Below are positions 3,985-17,441 of a stretch of 23,263 nucleotides of DNA, piece by piece (position 1 is the first letter of the stretch; every line of letters starts with the position of its first letter). Origin of the DNA: a virus. Both the position numbers and the translations under genes were made by a program. The DNA lies in the IMG/VR virus record IMGVR_UViG_3300047199_000009, positions 1-23,263 of that record, one strand, 5' to 3'. A model generated the notes under the pieces. The model was not told the DNA's origin, did no database searches, and saw only the letters and a program-made list of their open reading frames with translations.

Positions 3985-4009
3985 AAATAAATTAAATGGA
4001 GGCGTACAA

Positions 4010-4579
4010 ATGAGCGAATTAAAAGATATTAACGGATATTGGGTGGATGATAAAAATAATAAATGGGATAAAGAATATTATACGTTGGAATTAGCTACAG
4101 AGCTACATAAAACTTTAATTAATTGCAGTGATTGCCGTAATTGCAGTGATTGCCGTAATTGCAGTTATTGCAGTGATTGCAGTGATTGCCGTGATTGCCG
4201 TAATTGCAGTTATTTCAGTGATTGCAGTGATTGCAGTTATTGCAGTGATTGCAGTGATTGCAGTGATTGCAGTGATTGCAGTTATTGCAGTGGTTGCCGT
4301 AATTGCAGTTATTGCAGTGATTGCAGTGATTGCAGTGATTGCCGTAATTGCAGTGAGTATAAATCAAATCCAGCACGATATATCACGCAAAATATTGGTA
4401 GCAGATGCAACAATACAACGTTTTATTTTTATGAAGGAAAAGTAAACGTAATATGTGGCTGTTTCAACGGTGATTTAGACTCATTCGTCGAAAAAGTACA
4501 TGCTACATATGCAGAAGGACACAAACACAGGATTGAATATGATGCAGAAATAGCTAAGGTTAGGCAATTGTTTATGTAA
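4010..4579 (+). CDS. Cysteine tripeptide-repeat phage protein
   Basis: A 189-residue protein; ATG 4010 follows GGAGG with good spacing, and an in-frame ATG at 3947 lies inside the putative RNA element. It has three parts. Residues 1-37 are an N-terminal region ('INGYWVDDKNNKWDKEYYTL'). Residues 38-115 are 26 consecutive tripeptides of type (N/D/Y/G)-C-(S/R), one with F in place of C. Residues 116-189 are a C-terminal domain with 'NPARYITQNIGSRCNNTTFY', 'VICGCFNGDLDSF' and a final helix. The C-terminal pattern recurs in phage and prophage proteins with pentapeptide-like or Cys-rich repeats. The function is unknown. A regular solenoid, possibly metal-loaded through its 25 cysteines, is a structural guess. 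Confidence 0.7.
   Translation: MSELKDINGYWVDDKNNKWDKEYYTLELATELHKTLINCSDCRNCSDCRNCSYCSDCSDCRDCRNCSYFSDCSDCSYCSDCSDCSDCSDCSYCSGCRNCSYCSDCSDCSDCRNCSEYKSNPARYITQNIGSRCNNTTFYFYEGKVNVICGCFNGDLDSFVEKVHATYAEGHKHRIEYDAEIAKVRQLFM
4121..4354 (+). repeat. 9-bp tandem repeat, 26 copies, inside the Cys-repeat gene
   Basis: The unit is RATTGCAGT or RATTGCCGT (mostly gattgcagt, aattgcagt and tattgcagt), repeated without interruption for 234 bp. Each unit is three codons, so copy number can change without breaking the frame. Copies are near-identical at DNA level, a sign of recent slippage or recombination. Confidence 0.95.
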
Positions 4580-16435: not shown

Positions 16436-16484
16436 GGGATGGACGAAAATGGTTATAAAATAACTAATCGAAAGGATGATTATA

Positions 16485-17441
16485 ATGGCAAGCACATTAA
16501 AAGGCAAATTAGATAGTATAGCGGCAGGGTTGACATCAATTGATAGTGCCGCAACCGTTTTGGGTACTGCTGCAACTGCTGTTAGTACAGCAACCGCAAA
16601 CCTCACAAATACAGCAACTATAATTAGTGACGCTGGCGCAGTGATAGATTCTGTTGCTGACGTTATTGATGGTGGCGTTGACAGCATAGGCAATCAGTCA
16701 ACAAGCGTTGGCGTTTTAGCATCAACTATAATTGCTGATAGTGCAGGTAGCAAAGCAGCGTCAGCAGGTGCAAGCGTTGGATTGTTAGCGAGTACATTAA
16801 TAGCATTATCGACAGCAAGTAGAGTTAATAGCGTTGGTGCACAAGTAACCAGTATTGGATTACTTGAAAGTGCATTAATTGCAGACTCTGTAACAAGTAG
16901 AGTTGAATCAACAGCAAGTGCAGCAAAAAGCGTTGGGGTACAAGCAAGCACATTAATTGCTTTGTCAACAGCCTCTAAGGTAGATAGCGTTGGGGTCTTA
17001 AATAGCACAATAATAGCTGATAGTGCAGGAAGTAAAGCAACAAGCGTTGGACTGTTGGCAAGTACAATCATTGCAGACTCAGCAGGAAGCAAGGCGACAA
17101 GTGTTGGGGTATTGGCTTCTACACTTATTGCTAATTCAGTTCCATCGTTAATTGAATCGGCAACAAGCAAGATAGTCCTATTATCAACAGCATCCAAGAC
17201 GGATAGTGTTGGCGTTTTAGCAAGCACTATAATTGCTGACTCAGCAGGAAGTAAAGCTGTATTAGCCGGTGCAAGCGTTGGTCTGTTGGTTTCTGCAATT
17301 ATTGCCACCTCAGTACCATCATTGATTGAGTCGACAGCAAGTAAAATAGTAGCCTTATCAACTGCATCAAAAGTGGATAGCACAGGGGTTTTGCTTGCTA
17401 GCATAACAAGTTATCTGTCAAAAGTAGCTACCACAGCTTAA
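16485..17441 (+). CDS. Ser/Thr/Ala-rich repeat protein of the head module
   Basis: A 318-residue protein. ATG 16485 follows AAAGGATG; an in-frame ATG 16476 overlaps that site. It lacks Trp, Phe, Cys and His, has one Tyr and only two Pro, and consists mainly of Ser, Thr, Ala, Val, Ile, Leu and Gly. Residues about 1-70 are a degenerate leader; residues 74-309 hold about ten degenerate copies of a ~19-residue unit with consensus SVGVLASTIIADSAGSKAT. Some copies carry insertions (SVPSLIES, TASKIVALSTAS). The hydrophobic periodicity suggests a long helical or fibrous homo-oligomer. Between capsid and connector genes it may be a head fibre or decoration. The Ser/Thr content and the adjacent glycosyltransferase suggest it could be glycosylated. 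The function is not established. Confidence 0.65.
   Translation: MASTLKGKLDSIAAGLTSIDSAATVLGTAATAVSTATANLTNTATIISDAGAVIDSVADVIDGGVDSIGNQSTSVGVLASTIIADSAGSKAASAGASVGLLASTLIALSTASRVNSVGAQVTSIGLLESALIADSVTSRVESTASAAKSVGVQASTLIALSTASKVDSVGVLNSTIIADSAGSKATSVGLLASTIIADSAGSKATSVGVLASTLIANSVPSLIESATSKIVLLSTASKTDSVGVLASTIIADSAGSKAVLAGASVGLLVSAIIATSVPSLIESTASKIVALSTASKVDSTGVLLASITSYLSKVATTA
16704..17411 (+). repeat. Degenerate ~57-bp coding repeats
   Basis: About ten copies of a 19-codon unit run through the Ser/Thr-rich gene. Blocks such as AGCGTTGG, GCTGATAGTGCAGG and GCAAGTACAATCAT recur with small changes. Copies near 16981-17120 are the most alike, suggesting recent duplication. Confidence 0.8.

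Follow-up and report, generated by a model that had tools for sequence, protein, structure and literature searches.

We identified a phage protein in which 26 consecutive three-residue units, all but one beginning with Cys, separate a conserved N-terminal leader from a conserved C-terminal domain. In our best reading, to which we assign a probability of roughly 0.6, it is a short-repeat beta-solenoid with three-residue units and a core of stacked cysteines, encoded as optional cargo of the early region. The window, i.e., the whole stretch of DNA analyzed here, is a 23,263-base virus record. Features of the gene are listed in Table 1.

Table 1. Features of the Cys-triplet gene and its product in the window
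Feature	Position	Strand	Basis
Ribosome-binding site GGAGG	3998-4002	+	7 nt before ATG 4010, from sequence
Cys-triplet protein gene, 189 aa	4010-4579	+	ORF; PHROG profile matches
N-terminal leader / N-cap, aa 1-38	4010-4123	+	W-x-D-x-x-N-N-x-W ... T-L-x-N, conserved in relatives
Array, 26 triplets (25 Cys + Phe69), aa 39-116	4124-4357	+	Sequence, TRF, gap-free AF2 model
C-terminal domain / C-cap, aa 117-189	4358-4576	+	IGSR ... CGCF.G; AF2, Foldseek, PHROG profile

The array and its gene

The gene starts with ATG at 4010 and ends with a stop codon at 4577-4579, and an ORF check agreed with the coordinates and reading frame given in the initial annotation. Its picture of a phage protein with a short domain at the N-terminus and a conserved one at the C-terminus also held. 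Its count of 26 Cys tripeptides was correct for the number of in-phase triplets, but only 25 of these begin with Cys, and one begins with Phe (aa 69, TTC). TRF described the array as a period of 9 with 26.1 copies and no indels (score 344), and runs of six in-phase TGY codons at 9-bp spacing occurred 18 times in the window versus 0 in 100 dinucleotide-preserving shuffles. The dominant 9-bp units were TGC-AGT-GAT/TAT and TGC-CGT-AAT. All 25 Cys codons of the array were TGC, whereas the TGC:TGT ratio elsewhere in the phage was 25:32; similarly, all six Arg codons were CGT, whereas AGA/AGG predominated elsewhere. Such codon uniformity, unlike the rest of the phage, suggests that the array in its present form probably arose by recent amplification of few units. 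The antisense strand of the array reads (HCN)n in parts because TGCA is palindromic, and the +2 frame is open for 105 aa and reads (IAV)n (4128-4445, + strand); both look like mechanical by-products of the repeat.

The gene is located between a PHROG 10048 gene and genes for a DnaD-like loader and a DnaB-like helicase, and its relatives adjoin helicase, primase or RecE-like exonuclease genes. The upstream neighbour of the window gene has relatives in seven phages that had no triplet array within the flanks read (mostly 3 kb on both sides), so the array gene is optional cargo. One phage carrying a relative of this upstream gene encoded an NSG-type short-repeat protein (L292:305-1252), and positions 16476-17441 of the window contain a further ORF of repetitive sequence, in which 'STIIADSAGSKA.SVG' units recur. 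Just upstream of the Cys-triplet gene, the intergenic segment 3862-3995 had a strong predicted RNA fold (MFE -41.8, z -3.97) with a 12-bp closing stem followed by TTTTT. Rfam gave only a sub-threshold THF riboswitch match for this segment (17 bits vs 36), and searches for its relatives found none. The segment may act as a terminator or a regulatory leader, or may encode a small phage RNA.

Relatives and conservation of the array

Profile searches matched the leader and array to PHROG 15341 (aa 5-118, E 4.5e-25), and the C-terminal domain to PHROG 20532 (aa 124-187, E 1.7e-7) and to the C-terminus of PHROG 7964 (E 3.1e-5). All three families are uncharacterised, and no Pfam or NCBIfam model scored above its cut-off for the window protein. 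PHROG 15341, which includes Cys-rich proteins of Campylobacter phages, has a leader and Cys-triplet array as in the window protein, but the latter adds the IGSR C-cap. A profile scan of IMG/VR revealed at least 116 related loci, and the best 80 of 116 were retained. A corresponding scan of prokaryote species genomes found 13 loci among 84,980, and PHROG 15341 had matches in 2 of 291 genomes of one bacterial class, one being the starting genome and the other having stops inside both matches. Plasmids were searched and had no matches. Judged from these searches, the Cys-triplet family is widespread in phages and rare in cellular genomes. Annotated phages with relatives include Campylobacter phages, and one of their proteins is annotated merely as 'conserved hypothetical protein, cysteine rich'. 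We found no published account of Cys-triplet arrays in phages in the full text of open-licence papers. Some phages contained five or six paralogues within a few kilobases (L134, L137, L165), and across the collected loci the same kind of array was combined with several different leaders and with six or more C-terminal modules. Several tandem leader and array genes were also present on one 61,847-base contig (L021 and L169), some with in-array frame changes that may possibly reflect decay or assembly collapse.

The array reading frame is under strong purifying selection on Cys. Among 157 arrays with 3,922 in-phase Cys residues, there were 320 minor synonymous Cys codons versus 13 isolated replacements, and the Cys-to-Cys spacing was three in 3,450 cases across the collected arrays. 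Decay of the repeat frame in relatives, which the initial annotation had named as evidence against its view, was looked for and was not the rule, as the 157 arrays keep Cys. In contrast to this constancy of phase and residue, the number of units varied. Two relatives with identical leader and C-terminal DNA had 37 and 42 triplets (L166 and L170), and two near-identical relatives had 22 and 32 (L266 and L267). Units are therefore gained and lost in frame, as had been anticipated for the window array from its 9-bp units.

Caps and predicted fold

Foldseek searches with the model of the window protein matched phage C-caps annotated as 'Beta solenoid repeat protein', YdcK-like, hexapeptide, polymer-forming and pentapeptide proteins. 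The PHROG 20532 C-cap also terminated a pentapeptide protein (L139, Pentapeptide match with E 2.3e-31) and a hexapeptide protein (L138, Hexapep match with E 1.3e-10), and probably a YdcK solenoid as well, judging from a match below the Pfam cut-off (L236). In addition, PHROG 31265 was common to the C-terminal module of one Cys-triplet protein (L126) and the pentapeptide part of L139, and PHROG 31567 was likewise common to another Cys-triplet protein (L233) and a pentapeptide protein. These shared C-terminal modules place the triplet array in a beta-solenoid slot in three cap contexts; this swap of repeat types is drawn from annotated phages and PHROG profiles and is not a census. The 16 C-cap sequences aligned were too diverse for a scan, and the five-sequence version used in their place returned the Cys-array subtype only. 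Judged by both profile and predicted fold, phage YdcK-like, hexapeptide and pentapeptide beta-solenoids have the window type of C-terminal domain, but differ in having units of five, six or more residues, aliphatic cores and other N-terminal parts. Pfam gave no match of the window protein, with its three-residue repeat, to the pentapeptide family (PF00805, at least eight five-residue A(D/N)LXX repeats), nor to the hexapeptide left-handed beta-helix (PF00132, [LIV]-G-x4).

When the full protein was modeled by AF2 with a gapped alignment, pLDDT was ~80 for the leader, 74-94 for the C-terminal domain and ~30 for the array. With a gap-free alignment of the leader and 22 triplets, the best model was a solenoid (pLDDT 75, pTM 0.62) in which each triplet contributed a single bridge residue, at C+1. 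This was the one of five models with moderate confidence, the other four having values of 46-58, and AF2 is known to call beta-solenoids too often in repeat proteins (PMC11795689). A giant-virus Cys array modeled independently in BFVD superposed at 1.1 A over 52 columns. A Foldseek search of the AF2 solenoid against PDB gave no significant solved match (best E 0.86), and coil periodicity in the sequence was limited to a weak lag-4 signal that was gone once identical 9-bp units were removed. The exact i+3 spacing of the cysteines, which had been suggested to line one edge of a helix or solenoid, is compatible with one face of a solenoid. Across the collected arrays, C+2 was Asp, Asn or Gly in 63% of cases, which fits turns, and C+1 was mainly Ser, Arg, Ile, Tyr, Asn or Thr. 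We infer a solenoid fold and a core role of the Cys residues from several lines taken together.

Role of the cysteines and alternative explanations

A high Cys content is shared with metallothioneins, and the initial annotation had proposed that the cysteines could bind metal or form redox arrays. In such a metallothionein-like or Fe-S store, rows of thiolates along the array would bind Zn, Cu or Fe for buffering or electron transport during infection. The 25 exactly spaced thiols in a cytosolic protein without a signal peptide, the overlapping CxxC motifs and weak compositional matches to CXXC zinc domains are consistent with it. However, relatives argue against the proposal. A search with the leader alone found 26 loci, all 26 with triplet arrays, and in one relative that keeps the window-type leader and C-cap, Cys and Leu alternate perfectly over 30 triplets with an 18-bp unit (L262:2001-2603). 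Another relative with both caps kept has Cys/Met alternation at the array start, its phase residues being C-M-C-M-C-M-C-C-C-C (L270). In metallothioneins Cys is kept as metal ligand, whereas in these two relatives Leu or Met replaces every second one. The array also has an exact period, and no metallothionein or other metal-protein family was matched. The 13 isolated replacements were Ser (seven), Leu (three), Phe (two) and Tyr (one), never His or Asp, and the slot of the array is common to metal-free solenoids. Leu and Met at alternate sites, together with sporadic Ser and Phe, point to a packed core position. In terms of sequence, what the phase position needs appears to be a small or hydrophobic side chain rather than a thiol, and several lines argue that it behaves as packed core and not as a metal ligand or redox thiol. 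We therefore consider a metal store unlikely.

Other architectures with three-residue periodicity were also considered. The Tenebrio molitor antifreeze protein is a solved beta-helix in which exactly every third residue (C2, S5, C8, A11) points inward (PMC8038014). It was the top PDB profile match of the window protein (1ezg), aligned in phase, although the match was largely compositional (bias of 41 bits vs a score of 23.5). It would share with the proposed solenoid a Cys-rich core and inward side chains at every third position; however, it is a secreted, ice-binding protein with 12-residue coils and disulfides. A disulfide-laddered helix of this kind, with Cys-Cys bonds across the core, is highly improbable for the array protein: the TCTxSxNCxxAx 12-residue consensus of the beetle protein is absent from its uniform CSD/CRN/CSY triplets, the AF2 solenoid did not superpose on 1ezg (TM 0.13), and Cys/Leu arrays place Cys at every sixth residue with Leu between. 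Moreover, the lack of a signal peptide suggests a probably reducing cytosol. Alternatively, the array may be a polyproline-II, 3-10 or disordered segment, a flexible linker of three-residue periodicity joining two folded caps. Exactly three residues per turn would suit polyproline-II or 3-10, confidence in the array was low with the gapped alignment, and polyproline-II antifreeze proteins exist (PMC10235112). Nevertheless, Cys or Leu at every third residue, in a strict phase under selection, implies packing; Asp, Asn and Gly at C+2 suit turns; the C-caps are those of solenoids; and the best gap-free model was a solenoid. Such a linker thus seems quite unlikely. An inhibitor of the MfpA/Qnr type, mimicking DNA to target gyrase or a defence nuclease, is suggested by the occupied slot, as the best-known pentapeptide solenoids mimic DNA (PMC8145042), and by the location of the genes among recombination and replication genes. 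The longest uninterrupted stretch of the window array is also acidic (-0.47 per triplet). On the other hand, array charge was not uniform (70% negative and 10% positive), and this variation of surface charge between members lends no support to a DNA-mimic role shared by all of them. A PADLOC search returned nothing, there was no match to a gyrase-inhibitor family, and we regard DNA mimicry, too, as a long shot.

The beta-solenoid of three-residue units would be a cytosolic, early-region accessory protein of a widespread phage family, closed by the leader as N-cap and the C-terminal domain as C-cap. The first residue of each unit (Cys, or occasionally Leu, Met, Phe or Ser) would face the narrow interior, the second (Ser, Arg, Ile or Thr) would lie on the wall and bridge to the next coil, and the third (Asp, Asn, Gly or Tyr) would make the chain turn. 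Cys may have been chosen as a small and mildly hydrophobic residue, stacked as free thiols, and not for metal. In-frame gain and loss of units would vary the rod length and the outward surface, and the most likely role of the rod would be to bind, as a scaffold, some macromolecule of the host or phage in early infection, in host take-over or counter-defence. This role is suggested by analogy, since characterised pentapeptide solenoids act through shape and surface. More tentatively, at somewhat less than even odds, phages may carry a third class of short-repeat beta-solenoids that has the smallest repeat and a reduced-Cys core, is exchangeable with penta- and hexapeptide solenoids between shared caps, and is tuned in length in frame.

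If true, this would define a minimal solenoid unit of three residues, of which one has its side chain facing inward, as well as a core of free cysteines in a sequence class that resembles metal proteins but is probably not one. Exchange of repeat types between shared caps may indicate how phages construct and resize rod proteins, and arrays of the Cys/Cys, Cys/Leu and Cys/Met types would provide a natural test of the purpose of cysteine in these proteins, which in many phages are neighbours of genes for recombination and replication.
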